Part shown: piece by piece, positions 15,422 to 60,934 of the stretch
Position numbering within the stretch: position 1 is the stretch's first letter
Layout of the letters: every line of letters begins with the position of its first letter
Assembly: GCF_020422885.1 (NCBI RefSeq)
Contig: NZ_CP084622.1
Location: 4,173,001-4,237,000, forward strand
Direction: 5' to 3'
Origin: Mesobacillus sp. S13
GTDB taxonomy: Bacteria > Bacillota > Bacilli > Bacillales > Cytobacillaceae
Length of the DNA stretch: 64,000 nt
Translations under genes and position numbers: made by a program
Notes under the pieces: generated by a model
Seen by the model: the letters and a program-made list of their open reading frames with translations, nothing else
Told to the model about the DNA's origin: nothing
Databases searched by the model: none

Positions 15422-15736
15422 TCAATTTATATTAAGCACTTTTATCCCTTTGACCAGATTCCAGATCAACACGATCAGACCCAGTATGACCATTAAAATA
15501 GCGCTGCTGAACATGAACACAGGGAATTCCCCTGTCCCTCCTGTAAAATCGATTAAGGCTGCTACCACAATAAGCGGCAGCGGGATCAATGGAATGAGAT
15601 GCGATAGCAATGCCTTCTTCGCATGAAACTTTACATCCTCATCCTCGGATGCCAAATAAGCAACGAGCGGAAACAATATCCCGGCAAACATAACACTGAA
15701 ATAGCACAAAGCAGACAGAATCCTTTTCGTATCCAT
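15422..15736 (-). CDS. yvlA: YvlA, DUF4870-type membrane protein
   Basis: The 104-residue protein has three to four hydrophobic segments and the DUF4870-like pattern EDEDVKFHAKKALLSHLI after the first. MDTKRILS at 15736 is chosen as the start because AAGGAG lies ten bases upstream; the frame extends further without a better site. It is the first gene of yvlABCD, and its stop overlaps the yvlB ribosome-binding site. Confidence 0.83.
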   Translation of the reverse strand: MDTKRILSALCYFSVMFAGILFPLVAYLASEDEDVKFHAKKALLSHLIPLIPLPLIVVAALIDFTGGTGEFPVFMFSSAILMVILGLIVLIWNLVKGIKVLNIN

Positions 15737-15944
15737 CCTCTTCATCTCCTTAGAAATTAATACGCTCTGGAATCCTGGAAGTTTCATATCTTTATGAAAA
15801 TAGTTCGACAAATTGTGATTTATCCCTTGTTTTAGATGCATATCGACTCGTGAAAGTTGTGTGAATGCCTTTTATAGGGGATTTCCTTGTAGATTTCGTG
15901 CTACTTGAGTAGTTTTTTACAGGATATTTCGCTGATTTCTTTAA

Positions 15945-16089
15945 CTGGAAAAATTATTCTCTTACTCGACATGCTTAATTGCGCGGATACTCATCGTAAT
16001 TGCACGGTGATCGGTGATAATTGCGCGCTTACAGGCCATAATTGCACGGAAATCATGCATAATTGCACCATCATCCTAATTTTGGAAAA
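15945..16089 (+). repeat. Family B 145-bp phrase element, copy 1
   Basis: The element starts CTGGAAAAATTATTCTCTT and ends TCATCCTAATTTTGGAAAA. Five TAATTGCRC phrases start at 15976, 15997, 16018, 16039 and 16060, each step exactly 21 bases, with unconserved bases between. Copies at 27842-27986 (minus) and 59141-59285 (plus) have the same length, ends and steps. It lies between the codirectional yvlA and uvrA in a gap of about 410 bases that otherwise holds only the uvrA terminator and AT-rich sequence. Confidence 0.9.
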
Positions 16090-16147: not shown

Positions 16148-19027
16148 TTATGCATTGCTTGTGCTTTTTTCTTTTTCCTCAATTTGCTCTTTCATCCTCA
16201 GCCTGTCGCGTTCCAGAATAGGTTTGAGGTATCTGCCGGTATAGGATTCTTCCACTTCGGCAATCTTTTCTGGTGTTCCGGTGGCAAGGATTGTACCGCC
16301 GCGGTCTCCTCCTTCAGGTCCGAGGTCGACAATATAGTCCGCAGCTTTAATGACATCGAGGTTGTGCTCGATCACAAGCACCGTGTCGCCATTTTCGACA
16401 AGACGCTGGAGGACAACAAGCAGGCGGGAAATGTCATCGACATGCAAGCCTGTTGTTGGCTCATCCAGGATATACAGCGAACGGCCGGTGGAACGGCGAT
16501 GAAGCTCAGAAGCCAACTTGACGCGCTGCGCTTCCCCTCCGGAAAGAGTCGTCGCCGGCTGGCCGAGAGTGATATAGCCTAGTCCGACATCATATATCGT
16601 CTGCAGTTTGCGGGCGATCTTCGGAATGTTCGCGAAGAATTCAACCGCTGCTTCAACGGTCATATCAAGGATATCGGAAATATTCTTCCCTTTATACTTC
16701 ACTTCCAATGTCTCGCGGTTGTATCGTTTGCCGTGGCAGACTTCACATGGCACGTAAACGTCTGGAAGGAAGTGCATTTCGATCTTGATGATGCCATCGC
16801 CTCGGCAGGCTTCACAGCGTCCGCCTTTTACATTGAAGCTGAAACGGCCTTTTTTATAGCCGCGGACCTTCGCTTCATTCGTTGTTGCAAACACATCACG
16901 GATATCATCGAACACGCCGGTGTAGGTAGCCGGGTTCGACCTTGGTGTCCGGCCGATTGGCGATTGGTCAATATCGATGACCTTATCGAGATGCTCAACA
17001 CCTTTGATTTCCCTGAATTCGCCTGGTTTGCTTTTTGCTCGGTGCAGCTGCATTGCCAGCGATTTGTGCAGGATTTCATTGATTAGCGTACTTTTACCGG
17101 AACCGGAAACGCCTGTCACGGCCATGAAGGTTCCAAGCGGGAACTTCACGCTGACGTTTTTCAGGTTGTTTTCCTTTGCACCCTTGATTTCGATATAGCG
17201 GCCATCTGGTTTACGGCGCTCAATCGGCAGCGGGATGAACTTTTTACCAGAAAGGTACTTCCCTGTCAGTGAACTTGGATCATCCATGACTTCTGCAGGC
17301 GTTCCCTGCGAAATGATTTCACCGCCATGGACACCCGCTCCAGGACCGATATCGATCAGATGGTCCGCTGCGAGCATCGTGTCTTCATCGTGCTCGACGA
17401 CAATCAGCGTATTGCCGATATCGCGCATGTTTTTCAGCGTATCGATCAGTCTGTCATTGTCGCGCTGATGCAAACCGATGGAAGGCTCATCAAGAATATA
17501 CAGGACACCTGTGAGACGAGAGCCAATCTGGGTTGCAAGTCTGATACGCTGGGCTTCCCCTCCTGAAAGAGTCCCAGCAGAACGGCTCATTGTGAGGTAA
17601 TCCAATCCGACATTGATCAGGAAGCCAAGACGTTCCGTAATCTCGCGAAAAATCATATTAGCAATCTTCATTTCTTTTTCTGAAAGCTCAAGGTTCTGGA
17701 AAAATTGATGGGCATCTTCAACCGATAACGCGGTTACTTCACCGATATGGCGGCCGTCCACAAGAACAGCCAGCGTTTCACGCTTCAGCCTGTACCCTTT
17801 ACAAGTCGGGCAGGCATGCTCGCCCATATACTTTTCCATCTGTTCACGGATATAATCAGAGCCTGTTTCCTTATAGCGGCGCTCGATATTTTTCAACACG
17901 CCTTCAAAAACAATATAGTTCTCACGGACCTGGCCCCAGTCATTTTCATAGCGGAAATAGATACGATCCTTATCTGAGCCATAAAGAATCTTGTCCATCT
18001 CATGGTCAGGCAGGTCTTTCACTGGTACATCCATATCAATGCCATAATGATTGCAGACTGCTTCAAGCAGCTGCGGATAATACTGAGAACTTGTTGGTTC
18101 CCACGGAGCGATCGCATGCTGCTTCAATGTTAGCTCCTTGTTTGGGACGACCAAATCAACGTCGACTTCGAGTTTTGCACCAAGACCGTCACATTCAGGA
18201 CAGGCGCCAAACGGACTGTTGAATGAGAACATGCGTGGCTCCAGCTCGCCGATTGAAAATCCGCAGATCGGACAGGCATGGTTCTCGCTGAACATCAGCT
18301 CTTCTTCTCCGATTACGTCGATGAGAACATTTCCTTCGCCTAGCTTAAGCGCAGCTTCCATAGAGTCCGCCAGACGTGCAGCAATGCCTTCCTTGACGAC
18401 AATCCGGTCGATGACGACTTCAATCGAATGTTTCTTGTTTTTCTCCAGTTCGATTTCATCGCCCAAATCATGCATCTCTCCGTCAATCCTGACACGGACA
18501 TAGCCTTGTTTTTTCACATCCTCAAGAACTTTGGCGTGTGTGCCCTTCCTCCCGGAAACAAGCGGAGCCAGGATTTGCAGCTTCGTTCTCTCCGGATATT
18601 CAAGCACACGGTCGACCATCTGCTCGATAGTTTGGGAAGAGATTTCTATATTATGCACAGGACAGGTTGGTCTTCCCACCCTTGCAAATAACAATCGTAA
18701 ATAATCATATATCTCTGTGACCGTTCCAACTGTCGAACGCGGATTACGGCTTGTTGTTTTCTGGTCGATGGAAATCGCGGGGGATAATCCTTCGATCGAG
18801 TCAACATCCGGCTTGTCCATTTGGCCCAGGAACTGGCGCGCGTAGGCAGACAAAGATTCCACATAGCGGCGCTGTCCTTCAGCATAGATGGTATCGAATG
18901 CAAGCGAGGACTTTCCTGAACCGGAAAGTCCTGTCAGTACAACAAGCTTGTCTCTCGGAATGGTGACATCTATATTTTTCAAATTATGGGCCCTGGCGCC
19001 TTTGACAATCAGTTTATCCATAGCCAT
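16148..19027 (-). CDS. uvrA: Excinuclease ABC subunit A
   Basis: UvrA is the damage-sensing ATPase of nucleotide excision repair and loads UvrB. The 959-residue protein has two ABC ATPase halves with Walker [10 protein letters not shown] and GVSGSGKST, two LSGGEAQR signatures, and zinc-finger cysteines (CPICGF...CPEC and CEACRGDG...CEVC). Length matches the family. It starts at an ATG seven bases after the uvrB stop and is cotranscribed with uvrB. Confidence 0.98.
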
Positions 19028-27841: not shown

Positions 27842-27986
27842 TTTTCCATAATTTGGATGACGGTGCAATTATCAGGTTTCTTCGTGCAATTAATGACAAA
27901 GATGCTGCAATTAGCGTCCTTAATCGCGCGATTCCAATAAAGTTCCGTGCAATTAGCTCCACTGAGCAAGAGAATAAATTTTCCAG
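27842..27986 (-). repeat. Family B 145-bp phrase element, copy 2
   Basis: On the minus strand this starts CTGGAAAATTTATTCTCTT and ends TCATCCAAATTATGGAAAA. The five phrases read GTGCAATTA on the plus strand at 27863, 27884, 27905, 27926 and 27947, exactly 21 apart; the third is CTGCAATTA and the fourth is diverged to GCGCGATTC. It lies in the 505-base gap between the two subtilase genes, which also holds the downstream gene's promoter and the upstream gene's terminator. Confidence 0.9.
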
Positions 27987-52050: not shown

Positions 52051-52331
52051 AGTTGAAGCGTTGAAGAGAGTCTATTAAGCCGGTCTCCCTGTTAATAGAG
52101 AATCAGTGGTTGGTGGAAACTGATACAAAGTCCTGGTGAATTTCGTTCTTGGAGCTTTTCCTTTTAAAAATAGCTGTTTTCGCATCGGTGAAAAGAGCAT
52201 TAAAAAAGGAACGGTTTTGGCCGTTATCCAGTAACTTGAGCGGGAAGCAGCATGCTTCCAAATAGGGTGGTACCGCGTGTTCAGCCACGTCCCTATCCAG
52301 ATTGATGGATAGAGGCGTGGCTTTTTATTTT
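52051..52331 (+). promoter_or_regulatory. T-box riboswitch, probably phenylalanine-specific
   Basis: The leader has Stem I elements (GTTGAAGAGAG start, GGTTGGTGGAAACTG apical motif, GTGAAT-TTC-G specifier region), the T-box AGGGTGGTACCGCG at 52264-52277 and a rho-independent terminator at 52283-52331 that competes with the antiterminator. The likely specifier is TTC at 52142-52144 (Phe). The UGGU bulge pairs with an A discriminator base, which fits tRNA-Phe and argues against a Ser reading of the same loop. Uncharged tRNA should permit read-through into the transporter gene. Confidence 0.85.
52283..52331 (+). terminator. Conditional T-box terminator
   Basis: AGCCACGTCCCTATCCA pairs with TGGATAGAGGCGTGGCT, followed by TTTTATTTT. 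Confidence 0.88.
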
Positions 52332-52384: not shown

Positions 52385-53725
52385 ATGGAGAAAGAACAAT
52401 GGTCATCGAAAATCGGGTTCATTCTGGCCGCAGCAGGGTCAGCAATTGGCATCGGAGCGATCTGGAAGCTGCCCTATGTAACGGGAGTAAGCGGCGGCGG
52501 AGCGTTTTTCCTGATGTTTATCTTATTTTCATTATTCATCGGGTTGCCATTATTGCTTGCGGAGTTTGTCATCGGCCGCAGCACTGGGAAGGAAGCGATC
52601 CGTGCCTACCTGGAAATCGCGCCGAAAAGCCAATGGTATTTGATTGGGATACTCGGTGTCGTCACCAGCTTCGTGCTGCTTAGCTTCTATAGCGTAGTCG
52701 GCGGCTGGATCAGCCTTTATTTCATAAAAGGACTGGCTGGCAAAGTGGTTGAAGATGGAACAAATTATGGGGACTTGTTCGGACAGACGATCAGCAGTCC
52801 ATGGAGCGTGCTCGCTGCCCAGGCTGCCTTCTTATTGATTACGATTATTGTCGTCGCCAAAGGAATTCAATCCGGAATTGAAAAAGCAAGCAAAATCCTG
52901 ATGCCGGCGTTGTTCCTGCTTTTCATCATCTTGATCATCCGCTCACTGACGCTGGAAAACGCGCTTCAAGGCGTGAAATTTTTCCTTGCGCCAGATTTTT
53001 CAAGCATCACGTCGGAAAGCATCCTGTTCGCGATGGGACAATCATTTTTCTCCCTGAGTGTCGGCGTATCGGTCATGGTCACCTATAGCTCATACCTGCC
53101 TAAGAAAGGCAGCATTGTACAGCCTGCACTGTCAGTTGTCGGGATGAACCTGTTTATTGCACTGCTTGCCGGGCTGGCAATCTTCCCTGCGGTTTTCTCA
53201 CTCGGATTTGAACCAGCAGAAGGACCTGGATTGCTATTCGTCGTCCTTCCAGCTGTTTTTGAAAAAATGTTCCTAGGTGAACTTTTCCTGCTGCTGTTCT
53301 TGGCCTTATTCCTGTTCGCGACCCTCACTTCGGCATTTTCGATGCTGGAAATTGTCGTCGCCACCCTTGCGAAAGGCGACCCGAAGCAGCGCACCAGATT
53401 TGCCTGGATTGCCGGCGGCTTGATTTTCCTGCTTGGCATTCCTTCAGCCCTGTCATTCGGGACCTTGGCGGAAGCAACCATTTTCGAGAAAAACATCTTT
53501 GACACGGCCGACTTCCTTGTAAGCAACATCCTGATGCCACTAGGAGTCTTGTTGATTTCGATTTTCGTACCGCTGAAAATCAAAAAAGAAGTATTGCGGC
53601 AGGAGCTGCTAAAAGATTCAAAAGGAGGCAGTCTGCTTTTCAACCTTTGGTACAATGTGATGAGATTCATCGTGCCTGTGGTGATCATCATCGTATTCCT
53701 TGATTCATTAGGAGTATTAAAATAG
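52385..53725 (+). CDS. NSS (SNF) family sodium-dependent amino-acid transporter
   Basis: The 446-residue LeuT-fold protein has about 11-12 helices and the Na+-binding start [31 protein letters not shown]. It should take up an amino acid with sodium. The T-box leader with a probable Phe codon suggests phenylalanine or another aromatic amino acid. It starts at ATG 52385 behind AAGGGAG and ends at a strong terminator. Confidence 0.9.
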
Positions 53726-59140: not shown

Positions 59141-59285
59141 CTGGAAAAATTTTTCTGTTCGTTCAACCCGATAATTGCACGCTCATCATTAATAATTGCA
59201 CAGAGACGACTGATAATTGCGCGTTCACTAACCGTAATTGCGGCTTCACCTTCATTAATTGCACCTTCATCCAAAATAAGGAAAA
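59141..59285 (+). repeat. Family B 145-bp phrase element, copy 3
   Basis: It starts CTGGAAAAATTTTTCTGTT and ends TCATCCAAAATAAGGAAAA. Five TAATTGCRC-type phrases start at 59172, 59193, 59214, 59235 and 59256, each 21 apart; the fourth is TAATTGCGG. Length and layout equal copies 1 and 2. It lies between codirectional minJ and ctpB in a 402-base gap, which also has two TGTAGATTC phrases 21 bases apart near 59033 and 59054. Confidence 0.9.
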
Positions 59286-59323: not shown

Positions 59324-60775
59324 TCATTTCGCCAGCAGCCTCAATGCGGTCTGCAGCTGTAAGTCGTTTTCTTCTTGTTTCATCGCTTCTCTCGCTGCAT
59401 CCTCGAGTGAGGTGGCTGTTTTTGCATCAATGACACCTGTTACGGTCATGTCATTTTTCCGCTGGAATGCTTTGACGGCCATTTCGGTCATGCCGCTGTA
59501 GTAGCCATCAGTACGGCCCGGCTCAAATCCGAGACCAGCGAGGATTTCCTGGGCGTTTTTGACCTGCTCGTTATTCATATCGAGCTTGAGCGGCTTTTCA
59601 GCCTGGATGGGATGGGTATCATACAGTGCCGGCTGATTGACCTCGACAGTTGGCTCGATGCCTTTTTTATGGATCCAATTGCCATCCGGCGTCAGCCATT
59701 TGAACAGCGTCAGCTTGATATTGCTGCCATCCCCCATCGGCACAGCCTGCTGGACTGTCCCTTTGCCGAAGGTCTTTTCGCCAATGACTGGATAGCCGCC
59801 TGCTTCCTTCAATGCCCCAGCCAGAATTTCCGATGCAGATGCACTGCCATCGTCTGTTAACACCGCAACACGATATTGTTTCGCTTTTTCCAGATTGGAG
59901 AAATAACGAGTCTTATCCCCGCTGCGTTCCTCGATTTGGTAAAGTGGTTTCGTTTTAGGAATAAGCTCACGCAGAATTTCTTCGACACTGGAGAGCAGCC
60001 CCCCAGGATTGCCGCGCACATCGATCAGCAGCGCATCCATTCCTTCTTTTTCAAAGGCCTTAAGTTCCTTATTGAATTCCTTGGATGTATCCTCCGAAAA
60101 AGAGGTAATCTCCATATAGCCAATCTTCTCGCCATTCACCTTTTTCATGTCGGCATGGACGGTAATCTGCGGGATTTCGTCGCGAATCACTTTCACCTGA
60201 AGCGGATCTTTCAAGCCTTTACGCTCAATTTCCAGCATAACAGGAGTCCCTTTTTTACCACGAATCTTCAACGTCGCTTCATATAAATCCAATCCCTCTA
60301 TACTCTCGCCATCGACCTTTAAAATTTGATCATTCGGCTTCAGCCCCGCCTTCTCTGCGGGTGAATTTTTAAAAGGAGAAACGATCACAATTTTTCCATC
60401 GACCGTACTGACCTCTGCACCAATCCCTTCAAAAGACGACTCCAGCGTCTCGTTGAATTGTTTGGCCGTCTCCTTGTCCATATAGACAGAATAAGGATCC
60501 TCCAGCTTTGAAAGCATGCCCTGGATTGCGCCTTCTATCAGCTCATCTTCTTCCACCTTTTCAACGTAACTGTTAAAAATTAAACTGTATGCCTGCTCGA
60601 CTTTTTCGAGACTGCTAGCATCGCCAGCATGTGCACCCACCTGATTTTTCAGAGGCACGATTTGGCGTTCCAGAACCCCCGCCTTGCTTTCATACCATTG
60701 CATGCCGGCGTATGTACTCCCCGCTCCAGTCAGCAGCGAGCCCGCCATCAAAATGGGAATCCACTTACGTTCCAT
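59324..60775 (-). CDS. ctpB: Carboxy-terminal processing protease CtpB
   Basis: CtpB is an S41 PDZ protease; in B. subtilis it is made in the forespore and cuts SpoIVFA to trigger sigma-K activation. The 483-residue protein has an N-terminal membrane anchor, a PDZ domain (about 95-180), the S41 domain with Ser in DDGSASASEILAGAL and Lys in GEKTFGKGTVQ, and a C-terminal peptidoglycan-binding domain (about 400-460; DGYYSGMTEMAVKAFQRKNDMTVTG). ATG 60775 sits seven bases behind GGGGAGGAG. Confidence 0.92.
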   Translation of the reverse strand: MERKWIPILMAGSLLTGAGSTYAGMQWYESKAGVLERQIVPLKNQVGAHAGDASSLEKVEQAYSLIFNSYVEKVEEDELIEGAIQGMLSKLEDPYSVYMDKETAKQFNETLESSFEGIGAEVSTVDGKIVIVSPFKNSPAEKAGLKPNDQILKVDGESIEGLDLYEATLKIRGKKGTPVMLEIERKGLKDPLQVKVIRDEIPQITVHADMKKVNGEKIGYMEITSFSEDTSKEFNKELKAFEKEGMDALLIDVRGNPGGLLSSVEEILRELIPKTKPLYQIEERSGDKTRYFSNLEKAKQYRVAVLTDDGSASASEILAGALKEAGGYPVIGEKTFGKGTVQQAVPMGDGSNIKLTLFKWLTPDGNWIHKKGIEPTVEVNQPALYDTHPIQAEKPLKLDMNNEQVKNAQEILAGLGFEPGRTDGYYSGMTEMAVKAFQRKNDMTVTGVIDAKTATSLEDAAREAMKQEENDLQLQTALRLLAK

Positions 60776-60934
60776 TGCCAAACTCCTCCCCGTTTACCGC
60801 ATCAACTGCTCCTCTGCCGTAAAAATTTCTATGATTCCCATTATATGACGAAGAGGGACAGGGTATGAAGGATTAATTTTGGAGGCATGGACACTCTGGT
60901 TATATTTTACAAGTTTCTGAGAGTTTTAATCGGG

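Follow-up and report, generated by a model that had tools for sequence, protein, structure and literature searches.

The arrays in the window

The window analysed here, 64,000 nucleotides from the chromosome of Mesobacillus sp. S13, holds three copies of an intergenic element, whose parts and neighbours are collected in Table 1. Each copy is 145 bp long, the three align without a gap, and all begin with CTGGAAAAWTTWTTCT, as the sequence-only reading of this DNA had described them. That reading gave the right end a gap of six bases; the actual form is TCATCC-N7-GGAAAA, with seven. Its claim of five TAATTGCRC phrases per copy is exact for 12 of the 15 phrases, while the other three deviate (GAATCGCGC and TAATTGCAG in copy 2, TAATTGCGG in copy 3). 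The phrases start at exact 21-bp steps throughout, again as described. Copy 1 lies between uvrA and a DUF4870 gene, and copy 3 adjoins the 3′ end of an S41 peptidase gene. The window also contains a T-box leader (RF00230, 120 bits) upstream of an ORF.

Table 1. Coordinates of the arrays, their parts and nearby features in the window
Feature	Position	Strand	Remarks
DUF4870 gene	15422..15841	-	neighbour of copy 1
Array copy 1 (a09)	15945..16089	+	five units between a left and a right cap; site OG1, with arrays in 8 genomes
Left cap CTGGAAAAATTATTCTCTTA	15945..15964	+	copy 1
Phrase 1 TAATTGCGC	15976..15984	+	copy 1
Phrase 2 TAATTGCAC	15997..16005	+	copy 1
Phrase 3 TAATTGCGC	16018..16026	+	copy 1
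Phrase 4 TAATTGCAC	16039..16047	+	copy 1
Phrase 5 TAATTGCAC	16060..16068	+	copy 1, last unit
Right cap TCATCC-N7-GGAAAA	16071..16089	+	copy 1
uvrA	16148..19027	-	neighbour of copy 1
Array copy 2 (a10)	27842..27986	-	3/5 phrases exact; site OG5, arrays from 5 genomes
T-box leader	52052..52297	+	RF00230
ORF	52385..53725		downstream of the T-box leader
Array copy 3 (a11)	59141..59285	+	4/5 phrases exact; site OG13, arrays from 3 genomes
S41 peptidase gene	59324..60781	-	3′ end adjoins copy 3

Arrays across the genome and anatomy of a unit

The closed 4.81-Mb genome contains 17 arrays of 5 to 9 units each. Phrase pairs 21 bp apart (at most two mismatches) number 76 over the whole genome and the reversed pattern gives none, a degree of pairing far beyond chance. 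Lone phrases with at most one mismatch stay at chance level in the window (32 found, 34.9 expected). The commonest form is capped, with five units in 145 bp; it accounts for ten arrays, the three of the window and seven more, and all ten align without a gap. The earlier description as five phrases in 145 bp thus fits these ten but not the other seven, which have 6 to 9 units. The extra length of the longer arrays, which mostly lack the left cap, comes in whole 21-bp units, and we therefore regard 145 bp as the commonest form and not as a fixed length. In one nine-unit array (a17, G000:C1:4709244-4709420), a block of two units (42 bp) is repeated almost exactly, which suggests a recent expansion.

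Across 354 distinct units, the unit consists of TAATTGCAC followed by a preference for G/C at position 10, A/T at position 12, and A at position 14. Positions 2 to 7 are nearly invariant, and about six nearly free bases follow position 14. The sequence-only reading held that the spacers differ freely, which is partly right, but position 12 is nearly always A or T (345 of 354 units) and position 14 is mostly A (254 of 354). The last unit is distinct, with the form TAATTGCAC-NN-TCATCC-N7-GGAAAA, and its phrase departs in the 17 genome arrays only by single letters at positions 1 and 2. Within the left cap CTGGAAAAATTATTCTCTTA, the stretch TATTCTCTT lies exactly one 21-bp register step ahead of phrase 1 and so resembles a zeroth unit. 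Measured from the left cap, phrases lie at 30+21k in 48 of 51 cases and one base nearer in the other three. GGAAAA stands in direct orientation at both array ends.

Conservation between Mesobacillus species

Our sample of the genus comprised 21 genomes and included M. selenatarsenatis, M. boroniphilus, and Bacillus sp. ISL-37, ISL-41, ISL-45, and ISL-55. When loci were scored for the commoner phrase type (type A, see below), five genomes were without an array (G004, G009, G011, G017, and G019). A profile made from the sequences of ten copies alone had matches in all 21 genomes at E ≤ 0.1, with 150 of about 1500 to 2600 first-look candidates scored per genome; weak matches were those of G019 (3.8e-4), G004 (0.0057), and G009 (0.099, in a genome 66% complete). 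Array sites were grouped by their flanking proteins, since grouping by DNA had merged some of them. In this way, 92 arrays from 16 congeneric genomes fell into 23 sites, 20 of which are common to more than one genome. Strand and distance to dnaA agree within each site in the six closed genomes, and the arrays at shared sites have been inherited vertically. At the site of window copy 3 (OG13), two of the three genomes have four-unit arrays.

Divergence was counted over 111 orthologous pairs of equal unit number, with the G006/G007 pair left out. Phrases differ at 323 of 5031 positions (6.4%), left caps at 68 of 1460 (4.7%, counted only where GGAAAA is present), and right caps at 22.7%. The spacers diverge by 36 to 38%, and DNA outside the arrays, compared ungapped, by 56 to 57%. 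As arrays had been found through their phrases and capped elements through the cap pattern, the phrase and cap divergences are underestimates; the contrast between phrase and spacer is still large despite this detection bias. What the sequence-only reading asked for in the genome and its relatives is there, with many intergenic copies, phrases kept above spacers, and a register fixed in Mesobacillus. The outcomes it named as adverse did not turn up: there are 17 arrays and not three, their spacing is fixed, no Rfam family matches, and a MITE reading gained no support.

Position 12 behaves differently from the rest of the spacer. Of its 135 differences between orthologues, 120 are exchanges of A and T, a class that makes up 2 to 27% of differences at positions 10, 11, and 13 to 20 and 52% at position 21. 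To judge from these sequences, A:T pairs may be read here in duplex DNA. Acceptance of A:T or T:A but hardly of G:C is what minor-groove reading of a duplex would produce; codons would not.

Phrase dialects within Mesobacillus

In Bacillus sp. ISL-45 (G014) and ISL-41 (G015), caps and register are as usual, and the phrases read TAATTGCCC, TAATCTCCC, or TAATTAATCC (type B). Among 79 capped five-unit elements, type B accounts for seven of eight in G014, seven of eight in G015, the single one in G011, and none of 62 in twelve other genomes. In 10 of these 15 type B elements, the last unit has CGTGCC at positions 5 to 10. Type A denotes whatever fails the type B rule, and it takes in the mixed phrases of G018 and one odd array of G010; one G010 array (L417) has the type B phrase. 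The phrase change is not genome-wide, as five of the 12 regions fetched for G014 keep type A (12 of 31 profile matches were fetched for G014, and 8 of 28 for G015).

We called 64 A–B pairs orthologous from at least one matching flank, and these pairs are not independent of one another. Fourteen type B elements take part in them. Seven (L382, L384, L385, and L392 of G014; L394 and L397 of G015; L217 of G011) have a mean spacer identity to their type A orthologues of 0.59 over 21 pairs, against a background of 0.35 with a 95th percentile of 0.46, the resemblance of L217 resting on one marginal pair. Compared with type A, these seven elements keep TAAT at 0.90 identity, while positions 5 to 9 go down to 0.62, against 0.77 in A–A pairs with both flanks matched. 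From the similarity of the spacers, we conclude that the phrases of these seven elements changed in place. They include the site of window copy 2, whose orthologues in G014 and G015 combine type B phrases with similar spacers. The other seven fall below the 95th percentile of the background, and for these arrays replacement or a neighbouring array is as likely as rewriting in place.

Phrases can also be mixed within one type B array (TTGCCC, CTCCC, TAATCC, and CGTGCC), which is not simply explained by a single reader. Further phrases at 21-bp steps are TAATCTCTCG in G004, TAATCTCCCG in G011, TAATTAAACGGTT in G019, and TAATTGCGTAA, mixed with TAATTGCAC, in G018; the arrays of G004 and G019 were recognized by eye. 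At the leuC-leuD site (OG3), unit 3 has TTGAAC for TTGCAC in several species and TTAATCC in the type B species, so that single units seem to have a persistent identity.

Distribution beyond the genus

For a wider search, we used a pattern of three AATTGC at 20- or 21-bp steps and took the reversed pattern as a control. Matches occurred in 47 of 397 Bacillales genomes, namely 8 of 10 Mesobacillus and 39 of 387 others. The control matched in 24 Bacillales genomes, mostly once or twice; at least four matches were reached in 36 genomes with the pattern and in two with the control. The highest count in one Bacillales genome was 58+28 matches. In a phylum-wide sample outside the Bacillales, 5 of 389 genomes had one to three matches each, all with the 21-bp step expected of coding repeats. 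Pattern searches gave, in addition, at least 118 stretches outside the Bacillales and 35 in viral contigs; judged by eye, most of these are two-unit pairs or other repeats, and none enters the counts.

We inspected one locus from each of 29 genomes outside Mesobacillus, and 25 of these loci resemble such arrays; L311, L312, L313, and L333 were left out as other repeats or likely coding. AATTGC pairs in the 29 loci are spaced by 20 bp in 39 cases and by 21 bp in 38, although at least 58 of these 77 pairs follow from the search pattern, which allowed both steps. A step of 20 bp excludes coding and still comes to about two helical turns. The genera have their own dialects, with TAATTGCGCC, TTTAATTGCAG, GAATTGCGTTTTA, TAATTGCTGAC, and TAATTGCACCAAAA as phrases. 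Two loci in records named Cytobacillus oceanisediminis 2691 DE0166 (L136 and L150, genome G006) show the Mesobacillus array form; the genome lies in the Mesobacillus group, and the species name of the record looks wrong.

Gene surroundings, chromosome position, and alternative readings

Gene context was assessed at 48 sites, 25 from other genera and 23 from Mesobacillus, with genes called by ORF length only. The gap lies between convergent genes at 13 sites and between divergent genes at five, and a role as promoter operator was set aside on this count. The 33 genes flanking the 17 arrays of the genome share no function. At 31 of the 48 sites, the gene on the right has its 3′ end toward the array. 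At 11 sites, both neighbours are co-directional with the array, and its right end there faces a gene start. Some arrays lie within operons, in the orders purF-array-purM and leuC-array-leuD. In one locus (L037), an inverted repeat flanked by runs of A and T was seen by eye between the array and leuD, just upstream of leuD.

Terminators are common next to the arrays. Of the 48 sites, 25 have one that points into the right end of the array and 12 have one that points into the left end; the corresponding numbers for 393 random places, which include coding DNA and so make a lenient control, are 20 and 29. Together with the many right-hand genes that end toward the array, these counts speak for a transcription boundary, where a protein-coated array would mainly be a back-up terminator or roadblock behind genes. 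Forward-strand terminators to the right of the array are also common, however (11 of 48, against 29 of 393), the right end faces a gene start at the 11 sites just mentioned, and a block at purF-purM or leuC-leuD would cut an operon. We consider a boundary function of this kind unlikely as the main role.

The position of many copies downstream of genes or within operons means that they are probably transcribed, and the array might then act at the RNA level, in transcripts that serve as a sponge or docking row for a small RNA or an RNA-binding protein. The folding data count against this. The elements have no Rfam match at gathering level; copy 1, searched up to E 5, gave one chance-level match (E 1.3), which scored 11.4 bits where the gathering score is 50. 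RNAalifold returned −1.16 kcal/mol with compensatory changes at none of eight pairs, and a structured RNA was set aside on these two results. The arrays are also mixed in orientation to their neighbour genes, and the exchange of A and T at position 12 is more in keeping with duplex DNA. An RNA-level element appears unlikely too, and slightly more so than a boundary.

The interval between purF and purM, compared in 20 genomes, illustrates how the occupation of a site can vary. It measures 226 to 370 bp in eight genomes with a TAATTGC-type array, and G014, G015, and G011 have 21-bp arrays of other phrases. It is only 54 bp in G010 and 66 bp in G019, both without a recognizable array, and no array was seen in G004 and G017. 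G006 and G012 retain, by eye, a right-end remnant in about 120 bp. In G013, G016, and G001 (L370, L374, and L380), the interval is taken up by a repeat of another kind, ATGTGACCTTTAACTGC...GGGCACATTAA, roughly 50 bp long. Yet another repeat was seen by eye in L341, L343, L346, L347, L353, and others, as tandem units of roughly 50 to 60 bp with the inverted repeat CACCAATA...TATTGGTG; it sits downstream of the gene matched by L230:1-1089, where G005 and G014 have a capped array.

A MITE-like mobile repeat, now fixed and decaying, would account for multiple intergenic copies of about 145 bp, for the species without a recognizable array at purF-purM (G010, G019, G004, and G017), and for the unrelated spacers of some type B arrays at a shared place. 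The ends of the three window copies share no inverted repeat, though, and GGAAAA is direct at both; most sites (20 of 23) are common to more than one genome; and copy 1 has no match in phage or plasmid records. G006 and G012 have the remnant described above and not a clean empty site, and inspection by eye of two sites, each in 20 genomes, revealed no recognizable target-site duplication. Decay would not leave phrases better kept than spacers (6.4% vs. 36 to 38%); the sequence-only reading had judged it a poor fit on account of the strict spacing. We hold a mobile origin of this kind to be improbable.

A peptide of NC-x5 or IIAR heptads would match a unit of seven codons, and the NC frame is open through all five units of copy 1, but units have stops in every frame (over 78 units, 10 in the NC frame against a shuffled mean of 5.3, and 13 in the IIAR frame against 16.4) and in other genera the step can be 20 bp as well as 21. 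The sequence-only reading called the coding model weak, which is too mild; we find it hardly credible.

In the six closed Mesobacillus genomes, the origin half of the chromosome holds 90 of 104 places (E ≤ 0.01) and 21 of the 23 sites. Position relative to oriC is conserved across species in Mesobacillus, which is a landmark-type feature; another possible source of the origin bias is a gene order better preserved close to the origin. In a closed genome of another genus with dnaA at its start (G367), eight matches lie at 0.55, 2.18, 2.60, 2.92, 3.82, and 4.34 of about 4.7 Mb; this genome has no such bias, and we rejected origin bias as a general rule. Orientation to replication is not telling: at 14 of the 23 sites, the array runs against the fork.

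A proposed model of the arrays

With the alternatives weighed, a protein array on one face of the DNA, as first suggested from the helical spacing, is still the best model, in keeping with the fixed register, the conservation of phrases above spacers, and the lack of an Rfam family; the protein is putative. What has been kept through evolution in these soil-dwelling Bacillales are intergenic rows of a nine-letter word two helix turns apart, probably bound side by side by a putative protein. Stated in full, we think it somewhat more probable than its negation that the element is a capped array of double-stranded DNA sites for a putative sequence-specific, cooperatively binding protein or small protein family.

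In this model, each 21-bp unit would carry one site, all on the same helix face. The protein would touch the major groove along TAATTGCAC and, at position 12, the minor groove of an A:T pair in either orientation. Protomers would line up next to one another at intervals of two turns, and the special end sequences would cap their row. As to role, we favour a complex on intergenic DNA that anchors the chromosome or serves as its landmark over a promoter operator; in Mesobacillus, such complexes would lie mostly in the origin-proximal half.

More tentatively, and with rather less than even confidence, we propose a Bacillales-wide class of landmarks made of capped, two-turn-phased arrays with a putative fast-evolving reader, in which a change of specificity rewrites many phrases while register and caps persist. 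If so, the co-evolution of a reader and its sites would be preserved in the arrays as in a fossil record, and a nucleosome-like complex of about 145 bp might nucleate on them. Should the main model hold, non-model Bacillales would carry a common nucleoprotein array, and the dialects would offer a natural experiment on a DNA-binding protein and many sites changing specificity together. The kept positions in Mesobacillus would also make origin-proximal marking in spore formers testable in another genus.

Comparison with known systems

The sites of LytTR-type regulators (AgrA, SilA, and VirR) are described as 9-bp direct repeats with a 12-bp separation, and hence a 21-bp period (PMC2766830). The arrays are alike in their 9-bp direct repeats and 12-bp spacer, but LytTR sites have two repeats upstream of regulated promoters, whereas the arrays form rows of 5 to 9 and are rare in promoter-promoter gaps. 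By eye, the array phrase does not match what we take to be the LytTR consensus. RemA, a LytTR-like octamer ring of Bacillus, is described as binding poorly conserved repetitive DNA upstream of promoters, with wrapping proposed; at PepsA, the region covers 107 to 159 bp, and the footprints protect 7 bp each with 3 bp between them (PMC8481266). The arrays, with their period of 21 bp, do not have this footprint pattern. RemA is strongly conserved, and species dialects would be unexpected among its targets. As position and footprint disagree, we do not file the array with LytTR or RemA.

Other dispersed chromosomal sites resemble the arrays in their placement. Noc-binding sites are reported as absent from the terminus of the Bacillus chromosome (PMC4331003), and RefZ motifs (RBM) as conserved in position relative to oriC (PMC6657595). 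The likeness lies in multi-copy sites with biased or conserved chromosome positions. Noc and RefZ sites are palindromic or nearly so, however, whereas TAATTGCAC is not palindromic, and the arrays are capped direct-repeat arrays of another sequence. The bcr1 element of the Bacillus cereus group is described as an interspersed repeat of 147 and 167 bp that contains a stem-loop, and the title of a work cited in the same source ascribes mobile element characteristics to it (PMC2267715). Compared by description only, the arrays are similar in size but have no conserved fold and lie at shared sites. REP and BIME elements of enterobacteria are intergenic, near gene 3′ ends and also inside operons, and REPs form hairpins. 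The arrays share this setting but are without conserved structure. CRISPR repeats and plasmid iterons are likewise regularly spaced; the arrays differ from them in a 9-bp phrase, 12-bp spacers, dispersal over the chromosome, and the lack of a phage or plasmid match for copy 1.

The sequence-only reading did not recognize a described family, and this agrees with our searches: no Rfam family matches, and word matching in open-licence literature found no description, though one may exist elsewhere. The arrays are set apart from each described family considered by at least one defining feature, some of these features being taken from general background. Should a reader of a known class turn up, the arrays would be better seen as one variant of phased binding-site arrays.
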